Assembly: GCF_028714775.1 (NCBI RefSeq)
Contig: NZ_JAQTLS010000003.1
Coordinates: 124,001 to 188,000 of the forward strand
Direction: 5' to 3'
DNA: 64,000 nt
Source of the DNA: Thiothrix sp.
GTDB lineage: Bacteria; Pseudomonadota; Gammaproteobacteria; Thiotrichales; Thiotrichaceae
In this document: piece by piece, positions 1,000 through 30,562 of the stretch
Position numbering within the stretch: position 1 is the first letter of the stretch
Layout of the letters: every line of letters starts with the position of its first letter
Made by a program: the position numbers and the translations under genes
The notes under the pieces: model-generated
What the model was told of the DNA's origin: nothing
Databases searched by the model: none
Seen by the model: the letters and a program-made list of their open reading frames with translations, nothing else

Positions 1000-3900
1000 A
1001 TGACCCGGCAAATCAAGAAGCTTCTGGTCGCCAACCGTGGCGAAATCGCAATCCGCATCCTGCGTGCTGCGGCAGAACTCAAGTTGTGTACTGTCTCCAT
1101 TTACACCTATGAAGACCGTTTCTCCCCGCACCGTTACAAGGCGGACGAAGCCTACCAGATCGGCAAGGATGACGAACCGCTCAAGCCCTATCTGGATGTC
1201 GAGGAAATCATCAAGGTCGCCAAGCGCAACCATGTCGATGCCATCCACCCCGGCTACGGTTTCCTCTCCGAAAACGTGCGGTTTGCAACCCGTTGCCGTG
1301 AGGAAGGGATCATTTTCGTCGGCCCATCCCCGGAAGCGATGCAGAAACTCGGCGACAAAGTAGCCGCCAAGGAAATCGCGCTTGCCGCTGGTTTGCCTGT
1401 CATCGAAGACAGCCGCGAACCGCTGGATACGCTGGAAATTGCCCGCCGTGAAGCTGACCGCATCGGTTTCCCACTGATGATGAAAGCCGCTTCCGGTGGT
1501 GGTGGTCGTGGGATGCGCGTGTTGCGTGATGCTTCCCAGCTTGAATCGGCGTACAACGATGCACGTAACGAAGCCTTGAAAGCGTTCGGCGATGCCACCG
1601 TGTTCCTCGAAAAATACATCGACTCGCCCAAGCACATCGAAGTGCAAATCATCGGCGACACCCACGGCAACCTCGTGCACCTGTTTGAGCGCGACTGCTC
1701 AGTACAACGCCGCTTCCAAAAAGTGGTGGAAGTTGCCCCCAGCATTACCCTGAAACAAGAAACCCGTGACAAGCTGTACGAATACGCGCTGGCAATTACC
1801 CGCCACGTCAACTACTCGTGCGCCGGTACGGTCGAATTCTTGGTCGATAAAGACGAGCGCATTTACTTCATCGAAGTGAACCCGCGTGTGCAAGTCGAAC
1901 ACACCATCACCGAAGAAGTGACTGGCATCGACATCGTGCGTACCCAAATCCACGTTGCCGACGGACGCAAACTGTCTGACCCTGAAATCGACATCCCTTC
2001 ACAGGAATCCATCACCTGCAACGGTTTTGCCGTCCAGTGCCGGATCACCACCGAAGACCCAGAAAACGGCTTCAAACCCGACTACGGCACGATCATTGCC
2101 TACCGCAGCACAGGCGGTTTCGGTATCCGTTTGGATGCGGGCGCGGCTTATCCGGGTGCGAAAATTTCCCCGTTCTTCGACTCCATGCTGGTCAAAGTCA
2201 CCTCTTGGGGACGCACGCTGGAAGGCGCGATCAGCCGCAACTTGCGTGGTTTGCAGGAATTCCGTATCCGTGGGGTGAAAACCAACGTCGGCTTCCTCGA
2301 AAACGTGCTGCAACACCCGGTCTTTTCCAGCGGTAACTGCAACGTCACCTTCATCGACAACCACCCGGAACTGTTCCACACCCCGTTGCGCTTTGACCGT
2401 GGCACGAAGACGCTGAAATTCGTCGGCAATGTCATCATCAACGGCAACCCAGACGTGAAATACGTCGACCCGAACAAGCATTTCCGCAAGCCGATCATCC
2501 CTGACTTCGACAAAGTGGGCGCGTATCCAAAAGGTACCAAAAACCTGCTGGACGAAATGGGCGCGGACAAGTTCTGCCAATGGGTGAAAGACCAAAAGCA
2601 CGTCATGTACACCGACACCACGCTGCGTGACGCGCACCAGTCCTTACTGGCGACCCGCGTGCGTACCGATGACATGATGAAAATCGCCGAAGGTTTCGCC
2701 AAAAACCACTCACAAATGTTCTCACTGGAACTGTGGGGCGGTGCAACTTTCGACGTGGCAATGCGCTTCCTGCACGAATGCCCGTGGGATCGTCTGCGCC
2801 AATTGCGTGAAGCCATCCCCAACATCCTGTTCCAGATGCTGTTCCGTGGCTCCAACGCCGTCGGTTACACCGCTTACCCTGACAACGTGGTGGAAGCCTT
2901 CATCGAAAAGTCGTGGGAAAATGGCATCGACGTGTTCCGCATCTTCGACTCCCTGAACTGGATCGAAGGGATGCGCAAGTCCATCCAAGTAGTGCGCGAA
3001 CGTACTGGCGGGATTGCCGAAGGCACGATCTGCTACACCGGCAATGTGCTGGATAAAAGTGCCAGCAACAAATACAACCTGAACTATTACCTCGATCTGG
3101 CGAAGCAACTGGAAGATGCCGGTGCGCACATGCTGGCGGTCAAGGACATGGCAGGTTTGCTGAAACCTTACGCAGCGGAAGCCCTGATTCCGGCGCTGAA
3201 AGAAGCGGTCAGCATCCCCATCCACTTGCACACCCATGACACCGCCTCCATCCAAGCCGCCACCTTGCTGAAAGCAATTGAAGCGGGCGTGGATGTGGTC
3301 GACGGCTGCATGAGTTCCATGTCTGGCCTGACTTCACAGGTCAATCTGAACTCGCTGATTGCAGCGATGGAAGGCCAACCGCGTGAACAGCCGTTCAACC
3401 TCAAATCGCTCAATGCTTACGCGAACTATTGGGAAGACGTGCGTGAAATGTACTACCCGTTCGAGTCCGGCCTCAAGGCAGGCACGGCGGAAGTGTACAA
3501 CCACGAAATTCCGGGCGGTCAGTATTCCAACCTGCGTCCACAAGCCATCGCACTGGGCTTGGAACACAAGTTCGAGGAAGTGAAGGAAAACTACGCGGTG
3601 GTCAACCGCATGTTCGGCGACATCGTGAAAGTTACCCCGTCTTCCAAAGTCGTGGGCGACATGGCGATTTACATGACCTCCAACGGCCTGACCGAAGCGG
3701 ATGTCATGGAACGCGGCGCAACGCTGGCCTTCCCGGATTCCGTGCTTGACCTGTTCAAGGGCGGTTTGGGGCAGGTACCGGGCGGTTTCCCGAAAGAGCT
3801 GAGCGAGATCATCCTCAAGGGTGAAAAGCCATACACAGGCCGTCCGAACGACCACCTCAAGCCGGTGGACATGGATGCCGAATTTGAAGCCTTCAAGCAA

Positions 3901-4443
3901 GAGTTCGACCCGGAACAAACCTTCCTCGACTTCCTGTCGTTCAAGATGTACCCGGCGGTGTTCCGCGAGTTCTACAAGCATCAGCAGGAATACGGTGAAA
4001 TCAGCCATCTGCCGACCTCGCTGTTCTTCTACGGCCTCAAGCTGAATGAAGAAGTGCTGGTCGAATTGGGGCGCGGCAAGGTGCTGATCATCCGCTTGCT
4101 GTACCGTTCGCCTGCGGACGAAAACGGCATGTGTACCGTCACCTTCGACTTCAACGGCCAAATCCGCTCGGTGCAAATCCGCGACCTGTCCGTGAAGCCA
4201 ACCCGTGCCAGCAACCGCAAGGCTGTTGACCCGAACGAAATCGGTACATCACTGCAAGGCAAGCTCTCGGTCGTCATGGTCAAGGCTGGCGATGAAGTGG
4301 ATCAAAACACACCACTGTTCGTCATCGAAGCGATGAAGATGGAAACCACCATCACCGCACCGAACGCTGGCAAGATCAAAAAGGTTCACCTGCACGCGGG
4401 TGAGCTGGTCGAGCAAGGCGATTTGGTCATCGAGTTCGAGTAA
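1000..4443 (+). CDS. pyc: Pyruvate carboxylase, single-chain, biotin-dependent
   Basis: Carboxylates pyruvate to oxaloacetate using ATP and bicarbonate, the main anaplerotic step when cells grow on C2/C3 substrates. At 1147 aa it has the full single-chain architecture. The biotin carboxylase lies at about residues 1-450 (start LLVANRGEIAIRIL; ATP-grasp loop SGGGGRGM near 166). The carboxyltransferase begins around 538 with the signature TDTTLRDAHQS. The biotin carrier domain is at the end, with EAMKM at about 1110-1114 carrying the biotinylated lysine. Length and domain order match bacterial PYC rather than the two-subunit form. With cstA, aceA and mqo nearby, the region looks devoted to pyruvate, glyoxylate and malate metabolism. 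Confidence 0.97.
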   Translation: MTRQIKKLLVANRGEIAIRILRAAAELKLCTVSIYTYEDRFSPHRYKADEAYQIGKDDEPLKPYLDVEEIIKVAKRNHVDAIHPGYGFLSENVRFATRCREEGIIFVGPSPEAMQKLGDKVAAKEIALAAGLPVIEDSREPLDTLEIARREADRIGFPLMMKAASGGGGRGMRVLRDASQLESAYNDARNEALKAFGDATVFLEKYIDSPKHIEVQIIGDTHGNLVHLFERDCSVQRRFQKVVEVAPSITLKQETRDKLYEYALAITRHVNYSCAGTVEFLVDKDERIYFIEVNPRVQVEHTITEEVTGIDIVRTQIHVADGRKLSDPEIDIPSQESITCNGFAVQCRITTEDPENGFKPDYGTIIAYRSTGGFGIRLDAGAAYPGAKISPFFDSMLVKVTSWGRTLEGAISRNLRGLQEFRIRGVKTNVGFLENVLQHPVFSSGNCNVTFIDNHPELFHTPLRFDRGTKTLKFVGNVIINGNPDVKYVDPNKHFRKPIIPDFDKVGAYPKGTKNLLDEMGADKFCQWVKDQKHVMYTDTTLRDAHQSLLATRVRTDDMMKIAEGFAKNHSQMFSLELWGGATFDVAMRFLHECPWDRLRQLREAIPNILFQMLFRGSNAVGYTAYPDNVVEAFIEKSWENGIDVFRIFDSLNWIEGMRKSIQVVRERTGGIAEGTICYTGNVLDKSASNKYNLNYYLDLAKQLEDAGAHMLAVKDMAGLLKPYAAEALIPALKEAVSIPIHLHTHDTASIQAATLLKAIEAGVDVVDGCMSSMSGLTSQVNLNSLIAAMEGQPREQPFNLKSLNAYANYWEDVREMYYPFESGLKAGTAEVYNHEIPGGQYSNLRPQAIALGLEHKFEEVKENYAVVNRMFGDIVKVTPSSKVVGDMAIYMTSNGLTEADVMERGATLAFPDSVLDLFKGGLGQVPGGFPKELSEIILKGEKPYTGRPNDHLKPVDMDAEFEAFKQEFDPEQTFLDFLSFKMYPAVFREFYKHQQEYGEISHLPTSLFFYGLKLNEEVLVELGRGKVLIIRLLYRSPADENGMCTVTFDFNGQIRSVQIRDLSVKPTRASNRKAVDPNEIGTSLQGKLSVVMVKAGDEVDQNTPLFVIEAMKMETTITAPNAGKIKKVHLHAGELVEQGDLVIEFE

Positions 4444-4451
4444 TCCTGTAA

Positions 4452-4479
4452 GGTGGGTAGAGCGCAAGCGATACCCACC
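4452..4479. terminator. Hairpin after pyc
   Basis: GGTGGGTA and TACCCACC form an 8-bp stem just after the pyc stop, with a further GCGC/AAGC pairing possible in the loop. Only a short GTTTC follows, so termination is plausible but not certain; it could also be a dispersed intergenic hairpin. Confidence 0.5.
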
Positions 4480-4498
4480 GTTTCACTGGCCTGCGTGA

Positions 4499-4975
4499 TT
4501 AACGAAAAATCTTTGACTTGATGTCCGGCGCGAACTTACTCTCCCCAACCTGCCCAACGTGGGTAAAGATTTCCATACGGCTGTTTTCGTACACCACCCA
4601 CACTTCCTGCGCACCTTTGGCGAGGTAAAGCTCAACCTTTTCGGCGATTTCCACCTTAGAATTGGAGGGGGAGACAATTTCAACGCACAATTCGGGCGCT
4701 TTGGGATAAGGAGTGGCATAGCCAAACTCGGCAATGAATGCGGCGGAAGCCCACGCCACATCTGCTACTTTCACACCTTCGGAGGTTTGGATGGAGCATT
4801 CGGTAATAACCTCGCCCTCTGGCTGACGCTGCCATAACGCCCCCGCGATACGCCCTTGAAACCTACCGTGACTGTTCGAGGCGGGACTCATCAACAGCTT
4901 GCCGAACTTGTTCAGCTCAATCTTAAACGGCAAGTTTTGCAGCAGCGGATTGTCGATAACTTCTGACCATTCCAT
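4499..4975 (-). CDS. Uma2-family (DUF820) putative restriction-endonuclease-fold protein
   Basis: A 158-aa protein with the Uma2 pattern: a conserved Asp in VADVAW (D72), the strand PELCVEIVSPSN (E99) and a Lys-rich helix EKVELYLAKGAQEVWVVY (K113/K120). These are the expected PD-(D/E)XK positions. Uma2 proteins are abundant in cyanobacteria and filamentous sulfur bacteria, and their function is not established; some are linked to transposons. It is a single gene convergent with pyc. The start at 4975 follows GAGGGATCATC. Confidence 0.85.
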   Translation of the reverse strand: MEWSEVIDNPLLQNLPFKIELNKFGKLLMSPASNSHGRFQGRIAGALWQRQPEGEVITECSIQTSEGVKVADVAWASAAFIAEFGYATPYPKAPELCVEIVSPSNSKVEIAEKVELYLAKGAQEVWVVYENSRMEIFTHVGQVGESKFAPDIKSKIFR

Positions 4976-5054
4976 GATGATCCCTCATATTTGGCAACAT
5001 TGTTATGATAAGCTAACGCGGACAGAAACCCCAACCATCGCGAGGAACCCAACA

Positions 5055-5960
5055 ATGAAAAAACCCGCCCGACTTGCGCTATTTGCCGCCATCCTGTTAC
5101 TTCCCCTGCACAGCTACGCCGCCAGCTTCAACTGTAGCAAGGCAAAAACATGGTCGGAAAAAACCATTTGTAGCACCAAACAACTTTCTAACCTTGACGA
5201 ACTGCTGGCAGCTTCCTTCAGCAAAGCTCTTGCCAGCACCCGTGACAAAGCCGGTTTGAAAGCCGAACAACTGGATTGGCTCACCGACGAACGTGATGTT
5301 TGCCATGACGTGGCGTGCCTGAAAAGTGCCTACACTGACCGCATTGCCACCTTGAACGAAGCCATTGCCGACGCCGAAGTAACCGATCCCGCCCCCATCG
5401 GTTGGCATGAAGTCACCGCCCAACCTAGCCTCGTCGTCCGCGACAAACCTTCCGTTACTGGCAATAAGATCGGCACTGTCCCTCACGGCGGCAAAATCAA
5501 TGTACTGGAAGCAACGGGCAAAACTGACAATATCGGCGGGCGCAGTGGCACGTGGGTGAAAGTCCAATGGCAAAGCAAGCAAGGTTACGCTTTCGACGCT
5601 TTTCTGGACAAACTCTCAACCGAAAAAGCTGACACCAGCGATGCGCCGCCAGTCACCCCAACGGTAAAACCCATGACCAAACCCGTCAAAACCAGCGGTG
5701 GCAAGCGCCTGCAAGGGGTCATCAGTTCCTATGACTGCGGCGACAATTGCTACCTGACCATCACCGATGCCAAAGGCGCAGACCACATTGGCCTATGCAG
5801 CGCCCCGACCTGCGACTCATGGAATGAAGTTGCCGAAATGCCCGCCTCATTCAAAAACAAACCCGTCGAAGTCGTGATTGGCAAAGGCACACAATACGAC
5901 GGCGGCGGTAACGTCATGGGCGAAATGGATGCGTTTGAGGAAGTGATTTTCCTCGAATAA
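5055..5960 (+). CDS. Secreted protein: LprI-like N-terminus, SH3b domain, unknown C-terminal domain
   Basis: A 301-aa exported protein with a signal peptide ending at SYA-ASFNC. Residues of about 22-110 resemble the lysozyme-inhibitor LprI/DUF1311 domain: paired cysteines, W..K.ICS, and LDELLAASF. Then comes a bacterial SH3 domain (VVRDKPSVTGNKIGTV, WVKVQW..KQGYAF), a Thr/Pro/Lys linker, and a Cys-containing C-terminal domain of about 90 residues (VISSYDCGDNCYL). The ORF track begins at 4899, but the signal peptide and GCGAGGAAC site set the start at 5055. A periplasmic envelope or cell-wall role is inferred; the specific function is unknown. Confidence 0.8.
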   Translation: MKKPARLALFAAILLLPLHSYAASFNCSKAKTWSEKTICSTKQLSNLDELLAASFSKALASTRDKAGLKAEQLDWLTDERDVCHDVACLKSAYTDRIATLNEAIADAEVTDPAPIGWHEVTAQPSLVVRDKPSVTGNKIGTVPHGGKINVLEATGKTDNIGGRSGTWVKVQWQSKQGYAFDAFLDKLSTEKADTSDAPPVTPTVKPMTKPVKTSGGKRLQGVISSYDCGDNCYLTITDAKGADHIGLCSAPTCDSWNEVAEMPASFKNKPVEVVIGKGTQYDGGGNVMGEMDAFEEVIFLE

Positions 5961-5973
5961 ACCCGCAACGCAC

Positions 5974-6171
5974 TCAGCAACAGCGCCGGATGCCTTCCCA
6001 TTTCCGGCGTTGTTGTTGCTTGAAATAGGCTTTCCGCGCCAAAGGCTCATCGTCGGGGTGATAGACCTCGCAATGGCGCAAGTAACGCTCATACGCATCA
6101 TCCCCCGACGCATGGCGGATATACCGCCACAGCCGTTTCAGCACAAATCCCCATTGCGCTTTGGAAAGCAT
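5974..6171 (-). CDS. YbdD/YjiX family small protein, partner of CstA
   Basis: A 65-aa protein with the family pattern YIRHASGDDAYERYLRHCEVYHP and a basic C-terminus. YbdD/YjiX proteins are encoded directly after CstA/BtsT pyruvate transporters in many proteobacteria and appear needed for transport. The same order is seen here: its ATG overlaps the cstA stop (ATGA), implying translational coupling. Confidence 0.92.
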   Translation of the reverse strand: MLSKAQWGFVLKRLWRYIRHASGDDAYERYLRHCEVYHPDDEPLARKAYFKQQQRRKWEGIRRCC

Positions 6172-28927: not shown

Positions 28928-29201
28928 AGGCTAAACTCCTAATCTGAGGATATGCGGATGTTGGGCGCTTCACCATCCCACGAACCCAACGTGATTACCA
29001 GCAGAGATTGCAGCTTCCCGGCAGACGCCCACCCGCGCATTTTTCTCCGCAGCAGGGGCGCTGCCCCTGCACCCCGTAGCGCGAGCGGCTTCGCCAAAGT
29101 CTGGCGCTGCTTCCGCGCAACGCGCCTGCCTTTGGCTACACCGCCCGCGCAAGGATGCCGCCTCCGGCGGTTGCGGCTTCGCCGCCCTGCCCGGCCTTAG
29201 C
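28928..29201. other. Hairpin-rich GC region downstream of the TIR-FGE gene
   Basis: Non-coding. It contains at least three short perfect stems: GCGGC-TTC-GCCGC (29173-29185), CCGCC-TCC-GGCGG (29158-29170) and GCAGGGGC-GCT-GCCCCTGC (29052-29070). The first two start about 17-30 bp past the TIR-FGE stop codon. In the gene's direction their loops read GAA and GGA. Such small stem-loops are found after variable regions of retroelement target genes, but ordinary terminators or repeats are an alternative. Confidence 0.6.
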
Positions 29202-30416
29202 TCAATGACCTAAAAGCAAACGGAAGCCACAGTTGCTGCCACGGTAAACAGGCCCGCCCCTGAAACGGTAGGCAGAACGGCAGTACCTGCCGTTGTCGTA
29301 CCACGAGCCGCCGCGAACGACGCGCTCAACGCCCGTTTGTGAACCCTCCGGGTTCGTTACCGGCTCCGCCGGGTAAGAACCGTAACAATCTTGACACCAT
29401 TCCCACACATTGCCGTGCATTTCGTGCAAACCCCAAGCATTCGGAGGGTAGCTTCCCACTACTCTGGTTTTACCATTGGTATTCCATTCATCCCACTTTC
29501 CTGAGTAATTCACCCTGTCCAGATTCAAATCATCCTTGCCACCAAAGCTGAAGGCGCTGGTTGTCCCCGCACGGCAGGCGTATTCCCACTCTGCTTCCGT
29601 TGGCAAACGCAAGCTCACACCCGTCACCAGCGAATTCAGCTTTTGGATAAAGCCTTGCACGTCATTCCAACTGACCATTTCCACCGGATTGTTGGGACTA
29701 CCCTTGAAATGGGCGGGATTATTGCCCATCACCGTCTGCCACAAGGCTTGGGTGCAAGCTGTATCCGCCAGCCAGAAACCTTGCGTTAGGATCACTTTGT
29801 GCTGAGTTTCACTATCGAGACGCCCCGGTTCTGACGGCGGCGAACCCATCAGGAATGTGCCGGGTTTGATCTGACGGAAGCGTTGGATGATACCTTTCAC
29901 ATTCAAATCAGCGTAATGACCGTATTGGTCATCGCCTGCCGCGCTTGCCCATGCGGGTTTAGATGGTCGGGTGACAACGGGGGGCGTGCTAATGACGGGT
30001 GGAGCGGATGGCGTTGCGGTTTTCTCACCGACCAAAGTATGGATTTGGGCGGACAACTTCGTGAAATCGGCATGGTTAGTCTCACCGCCCCACGTGATGA
30101 AATTACCTGCCTGCACGATCTGAAAACCAAACGGCGGTTTGACATCATCCAAACGGATCGGTAACAAAACACCCCGATGCTTGCCTTCAATGGCTTCTTC
30201 AATGACCCACTCTGAATGCACGGAAGATGCCGACCATGCCACCACTACGCAGCGGCTTTCACTGACTGCCTTACCAATCACTTGTTGCCAGTGTTTTCCA
30301 ATCGGGACTGAACGGTGATCCCAAAACACCGACCAGCCTTGTTGCTCCAATGCCTTCACCAACGGCATCAGGCGTTCGCGGTCTTGGGTCGAATAACTGA
30401 GAAAAATGTCGTACAT
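29202..30416 (-). CDS. TIR domain fused to a formylglycine-generating-enzyme-like (FGE/SUMF1) domain
   Basis: A 404-aa protein. Residues of about 1-135 form a TIR domain ([28 protein letters not shown], and a candidate catalytic Glu at 73/74 in WVIEEAIEG). A Pro/Thr-rich linker follows. From about 175 on is a C-type-lectin-like FGE domain ([54 protein letters not shown]). In the final GGSW segment one of the two copper-binding cysteines of true FGE is replaced by Asp, so sulfatase-activating catalysis is unlikely. The 3' end resembles a retroelement variable region. The track starts at 30545; the start at 30416 begins the TIR fold. A conflict or signalling role is inferred. Confidence 0.88.
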
Positions 30417-30562
30417 GCGGTTAGGGCTGCGGCTGCAAAGATGGGGGAGATAATAAACCATATTGGCTGCCAATTCATGCGCCAATCCACCCCGCCCATT
30501 ACGGCTTCTCGACACCTGCGCCACTCTCTGGTTTGCTTCCCCCATTGTCCGAACACTTTCCT

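Follow-up and report, generated by a model that had tools for sequence, protein, structure and literature searches.

The window analysed here, a stretch of 64,000 nucleotides from Thiothrix sp., carries at the 3′ end of a TIR-FGE fusion gene a variable repeat (VR) that, close to certainly, was written by a diversity-generating retroelement (DGR). The best explanation, which we regard as very probable, is that this repeat is a remote target of the DGR on contig C31 of the same genome, one of a class that occurs in filamentous Thiothrix, that the element was recently inactivated, and that the receptor is now frozen in one variant. The template repeat (TR) lies on another contig, the core of the reverse transcriptase (RT) gene beside it has been deleted, and no other intact DGR RT was found; for these reasons we consider the repeat a remote target that is now probably frozen. 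A sequence-only reading of the window had offered "remote target" and "fossil" as alternatives, and the gene is probably both. The term "frozen" in itself is held as likely and no more firmly than that, because the assembly is a draft and each species is represented by one genome. The features are collected in Table 1.

Table 1. Features of the window and of the C31 locus (positions without a contig name are those of the window).
Feature	Position	Strand	Basis or remark
Target gene, TIR-FGE fusion	29202..30545	(-)	ORF; 447 aa from upstream ATG
TIR domain, residues about 45-152	30090..30413	(-)	Pfam TIR_2/TIR
FGE-sulfatase / C-type-lectin-fold domain, residues 225-444	29214..29873	(-)	Pfam
VR, 127-nt near-copy of TR	29210..29336	(-)	Adenine-specific changes; synonymous codons identical to other targets
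Putative IMH (initiation of mutagenic homing) segment, GGCTTCCGTTTGCTTTTAG	29210..29228	(-)	VR/TR 3′ end comparison, four species
Putative target-recognition hairpin, GGGCGGCGAAGCCGCA	29172..29187	(-)	5-bp stem, GAA loop; folds as DNA
Second GC-rich hairpin, CCGCCGGAGGCGG, GGA loop	29158..29170	(-)	Predicted fold; common to most other TIR-FGE targets
TR	C31:11352-11478	(-)	A-rich near-copy of window repeat
HRDC accessory gene	C31:12193-12690		Overlaps RT; Pfam HRDC 1.7e-17

The FGE terminal segment, its C-terminal motif and its NNC-rich codons are present in the reading frame where the sequence-only reading had placed them. An alternative ATG at 30416, giving a 404 aa product, is the likelier start, since the N-terminal 43 residues encoded from the upstream ATG are predicted with very low confidence and are missing from most homologues. 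The TIR domain (TIR_2, Pfam 6.5e-20) has weak NCBIfam matches to anti-phage TIR proteins and contains SEWVIEE, which, judged by eye, fits the usual position of the catalytic glutamate. For the FGE-sulfatase domain (Pfam 1.2e-44) the best solved relative is the DGR variable protein TvpA (2y3c), the top match both by sequence (7.5e-25) and by predicted fold (1.6e-16). Because the AlphaFold model of the protein reaches only moderate confidence (pLDDT 66), we drew on it for nothing beyond the fold match. In human FGE, Cys336 and Cys341 are the two copper-binding active-site cysteines. Aligning the human SYMCHRSYC with SWYDNGRYC of the window protein shows that the second cysteine alone is kept, so that the cysteine pair of a formylglycine-generating enzyme is absent from this protein. 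The first active-site cysteine aligns with a template-adenine (AAC) position that is variable among the targets, and for this reason the domain is not likely to be an enzyme.

When the genome was searched with positions 29190-29400, four more strong places were found, one on C5 and three on C31. The middle of the three on C31, TGGAACAACAACGGCAGGAACTGCCGTTCTGCCTACCGTAACAGGAACGAGCCTGATGACCGTAACAACAAC, is rich in adenines and follows directly after the RT gene; it is the A-rich near-copy beside an RT gene for which the sequence-only reading had proposed to search. Its view of the 3′ end of the gene as a DGR variable region is borne out, the mismatches with the template in the core tract falling almost exclusively at adenines. 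Over the whole 127-nt tract, 15/29 template adenines are changed in the window VR, versus 4/98 other bases (Fisher p=1.6e-8), with two of these four lying beyond the last adenine of the variable core and one being the first base; in the 102-nt core the counts are 14/27 and 1/75 (p=4.4e-9). The TR has four targets: the window gene, a gene on C5, and two genes adjoining the TR on C31. Over their pooled cores, 61/108 adenines differ, versus 4/300 other bases (p=1.2e-37), and the two local C31 VRs have 0/75 non-adenine differences from the TR. The same pattern is seen in intact relatives: the VRs of G057 differ from their own template at 18/27 and 14/27 adenines, versus 0/75 others. As a control, we compared the TR with its orthologues in other species, where there is no adenine bias: 0/27 adenines and 3/75 other bases differ from G057, 3/27 and 8/75 from G051, and 3/27 and 13/75 from G047. 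All comparisons of repeats were made within the genome or between species, with one genome per species.

The template also permits a check of the codons that had been read as mutated AAC. It runs TGG AAC AAC AAC GGC AGG AAC TGC CGT TCT GCC TAC CGT AAC AGG AAC GAG CCT GAT GAC CGT AAC AAC AAC, and the window reads its variable codons as TAC GAC AAC / TAC / TTC / GGC / GGC AGC AAC. The origin from AAC thus holds in general, with two minor corrections: GGC, given as the fourth codon, already stands as GGC in the template, and the TAC further on derives from a template GAC and not from AAC. The template has 18 variable codons in all, which by simple product would allow ~9e15 possible proteins.

The C31 locus consists, in order, of a MoxR-like AAA ATPase, a 1049-aa target with an FGE tail, an HRDC protein, the RT, the TR and a 274-aa FGE target. 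Of the two accessory proteins that mark a DGR, Avd or HRDC, it has the latter. A DGR RT is recognized by motif 4, [ILV]GxxxSQ, together with YxDD. The orthologues of the C31 RT in G051 (Thiothrix fructosivorans) and G057 have both LPIGSLTSQ and YMDD intact and are 335 residues long from the shared Met, versus 238 residues in our genome, which has suffered a clean in-frame loss of exactly 97 codons between LQRIL and ILQGAIRLSRR. The lost segment holds GLPIGSLTSQYFAN and YMDD, LPIGSLTSQ included, so that motifs 4 to 6 are gone. The RT adjoining the TR is therefore a DGR RT by ancestry and not in current activity, and because it has neither LPIGSLTSQ nor YMDD, our claim is that the VR was written by a DGR, not that the DGR is active. 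For what is left of the RT, a crude dN/dS estimate gives 0.09 versus G051 and 0.09 versus G057, compared with 0.12 between the two intact RTs. Taken together with the local VRs and their 0/75 non-adenine differences, this similarity to the intact pair makes the deletion appear recent.

A DGR-RT profile search of the genome found no intact DGR RT elsewhere: it returned the C31 RT, a C-terminal (3′) remnant on C5 containing a stop, and two further RTs outside the DGR type, one taken to be a CRISPR RT and the other a group II RT. The RTs on C45, C6 and C4 were rejected as DGR RTs because DGR motif 4 is absent from each of them; the C45 RT is of group II intron type and that on C4 retron-like, both by reading of the sequence, and the C6 RT adjoins a cas1-like gene. 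The C6 protein (L002, G000:C6:103713-107321), a 280-aa RT with an FADD motif, is probably a CRISPR-associated RT.

It could be that the DGR is still active, with the RT deletion being an artefact of assembly or culture, or with an intact RT on an unassembled replicon using the C31 template in trans and thereby still rewriting the window repeat; we consider this unlikely. With 70 contigs and 4.3 Mb, the assembly is a draft in which an RT may be missing or the deletion may be an assembly fault, and both the local C31 VRs (0/75 non-adenine differences) and a second TR/VR pair on C14 (11/11 mismatches of a 125-nt tract at adenines) are very fresh. Moreover, the closest RT orthologue, that of T. 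fructosivorans, is borne on plasmid pTfr446, which was also the one relative found when genome contigs were scanned with the RT. However, the completeness estimate of the genome is 100%, the deletion is clean and in frame, the DGR-RT profile shows no other candidate with DGR motif 4, and other Thiothrix species likewise show loss of the RT with targets kept. Orphan TR/VR pairs might continue to be modified by an RT supplied in trans, be it missing from the assembly, carried for a time, or of a kind not recognized as DGR; this too seems to us unlikely.

Class-I VRs are found in most of the Thiothrix species examined, and intact class-I RTs only in G051 and G057, plus G047 from another genus of the family. 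In G049, G053, G054 and G061, class-I VRs are present without any DGR RT at E<=1e-20, on which basis the loss of RT with retention of targets looks recurrent. The same kind of loss is known in Thiohalocapsa loci (PMC10907252) and in Treponema isolates (PMC4891356). The RT of G059, which has a stop inside the match, was rejected as a further broken RT, as its main frame is intact with YMDD. A plasmid collection gave only distant FGE matches (<60% identity), with no strain-level variation among them.

Differences between VR and TR beyond the adenines follow the layout expected of a DGR. The putative IMH of the window repeat is the same as the TR up to a conserved switch, TAGGTCA in the VR and TAGCTCA in the TR; across four species, the VRs have TAGGTCA or TAGGTCT versus TAGCTCA in the TRs. 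The window hairpin is placed 30 nt after the VR reading-frame motif. The 16-nt hairpin sequence GGGCGGCGRAGCCGCA has four exact occurrences in the 4.3 Mb genome, one behind each VR, and none after the TR, with zero control hits. A relaxed 15-mer has 21 matches in the genus, 19 of them behind VRs or FGE genes: 16 lie 26-36 nt after a recognized VR motif and three behind VR or FGE hits from DNA or protein search, while the other two are chance matches inside unrelated sequence. Thus, as in other DGRs, IMH and IMH* differ, and a hairpin is found behind the VR and not behind the TR. Homing of the Bordetella phage BPP-1 DGR needs a GC-rich hairpin located 3′ of the VR, and in phage DGRs such hairpins lie 4-34 bp after the VR (PMC3240598); by analogy, the Thiothrix element may be a homing hairpin. 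The CCGCCGGAGGCGG element is also present behind the C5 target and those of G051, G053 and G054. The region 29020-29200, 3′ of the TIR-FGE gene, is GC-rich with several inverted repeats, and its first part, including CCGCCGGAGGCGG and TTGCGCGG, is common to other TIR-FGE targets.

Similarity of the repeats is due to copying rather than convergence. Outside the VR the four target genes have diverged: where the window protein shares amino acids with the three others, the same codon is used in 85/137, 72/121 and 49/101 cases in the body, versus 23/27, 29/29 and 28/30 in the VR. If FGE genes had simply been duplicated, or had undergone gene conversion with no reverse transcription step, a 3′ segment and flank common to four genes would be accounted for, but conversion would not gather differences on the adenines of one member, and the body of the window gene has only about 62-66% DNA identity with the other targets, versus 85-100% matching of the VR framework codons; we therefore think this explanation very improbable. 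It is likely that duplication spread the target cassettes with their 3′ flank in addition to the DGR, not instead of it. An ordinary FGE domain with NNC codons arising by chance of GC-rich codon usage is scarcely credible, as, despite the conserved and common C-termini of FGE proteins and the many FGE paralogues in this genome, a real A-rich template adjoins an RT, the differences from it are specific to adenines (p=4e-9 for the window gene alone), and the hairpin is specific to VRs.

Copying also appears to have been from the template of this lineage. At sites diagnostic between our TR and those of three relatives, the window VR resembles its own TR at 8/8, 12/12 and 14/15. At 8/12 diagnostic sites it is the G051 template that the C5 repeat matches, on which evidence an older version of the template, or a different one, seems to have served as its source. 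The G051-type markers of this C5 TIR-FGE repeat (L042, G000:C5:60500-66000) include a GTG codon and the CTTGCCCTAG end, which suggests that either the template was swapped or the gene was acquired. The relatives are ranked differently by RT and TR, the RT being closer to G051 and the TR closer to G057.

We propose that the window gene served in trans as a remote target of the C31 DGR. By the known DGR mechanism, reverse transcription of the TR RNA would place random nucleotides opposite adenines, and once the IMH and the hairpin had been recognized, the resulting cDNA would be swapped in for the window segment. Such mutagenic retrohoming would have reshuffled the exposed loop of a lectin-fold (CLec) domain, which presumably senses a ligand or antigen and is coupled to the TIR effector, until loss of the RT core would have frozen the current receptor variant. 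The role as sensor plus effector is suggested by the domain pairing and by published conflict-system DGRs (PMC10907252, PMC7159879). Deletion of whole codons without any other lesion would also be compatible with some residual selected role of the RT, and shedding its core could conceivably have been favoured by selection as a means of fixing a receptor that works well.

The closest parallel in habit is Thiohalocapsa PB-PSB1, a prototype for DGRs of multicellular bacteria (PMC10907252) and, like Thiothrix, a sulfur gammaproteobacterium with a multicellular habit, though of a different genus. Both have several DGR classes per genome, CLec/FGE targets, MoxR-type conflict-system neighbours and degenerate loci without working machinery; TIR-bearing target domains are listed for Thiohalocapsa, and TIR/CLec targets and degenerate DGR loci have been published for multicellular bacteria besides Thiothrix. 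Thiothrix differs in having no class with an intact RT in the assembly, in the compact TIR-FGE target far from the core locus, and in its accessory gene, HRDC, a word absent from the main text of that paper. The TvpA DGR of Treponema denticola (PMC4891356; 2y3c), which supplies the best sequence and fold match, shares the FGE/CLec target, an HRDC accessory gene overlapping the RT, remote targets, and relic targets in RT-less isolates, whereas its targets include predicted lipoproteins rather than TIR proteins, and template and framework are unrelated in detail. With the BPP-1 DGR (PMC3240598), Thiothrix shares TR/VR adenine mutagenesis, the IMH switch and the GC-rich hairpin just after the VR; it differs in having HRDC instead of Avd, a chromosomal host gene instead of a tail fibre, and a hairpin with a 5-bp stem and 3-nt GRA loop, versus 7-10 bp and a 4-nt GRNA loop in phage DGRs. 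In FGE-associated ternary conflict systems, FGS domains are tied to DGRs and TIR acts as an effector (PMC7159879). The C31 locus resembles them in its MoxR-like ATPase and large FGE-tailed target, while the window gene stands alone with no MoxR/vWA neighbours seen; Pfam detected no vWA or VMAP domain in the C31 target. None of the papers searched names both Thiothrix and DGRs.

Thiothrix is a culturable filamentous bacterium, and with this locus it joins the multicellular bacteria that hypermutate TIR-linked receptor-like proteins. The same layout of template and targets, with the RT intact in T. fructosivorans and catalytically deleted in Thiothrix sp., amounts to a natural knock-out, through which the value of DGR activity to the host and the freezing of receptors by RT loss become testable. 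Because the hairpin marks the four targets and has no further occurrence in the 4.3 Mb, it offers an easy way to look for remote targets throughout the genus.

Repeats belonging to several DGR classes persist in this genome, with no intact DGR RT found in its assembly. The pair on C14 (L133, G000:C14:72000-86000) has a target at 2782-5637 (+), a 952 aa protein with a TIR-like N-terminus and the VR in its tail, with the VR at about 5506-5630 and the TR at about 5859-5983; no RT is found near it, and its template is 96-97% conserved in G052 and G058. A search for further templates in the genome by strict DNA pattern gave none, probably because the pattern was too strict, since it also missed the known template. 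The C5 remnant, an RT with a stop codon beside an FGE tail (L144, G000:C5:145749-146036), and the FGE tails at C5:146138 (L028) and C11:25823 (L026) appear to be a third, dead DGR class; compared with the template of G056 (L064), these tails differ mostly at adenines (20/29 adenines versus 13/103 others, and 14/29 versus 13/103, respectively). The FGE tail at G000:C3:32278-32946 (L020) is like a template in G058:C16, with 18/30 adenines and 17/105 others changed, and is a candidate orphan target of a fourth class. In G056 itself, a broken DGR RT (L054, G056:C1:3169746-3173231) has a truncated frame that continues into a template-like repeat, RFKGTDNRNNNTPDNRNNNIGFRL, as though the sequence from the RT through to the TR had been deleted.
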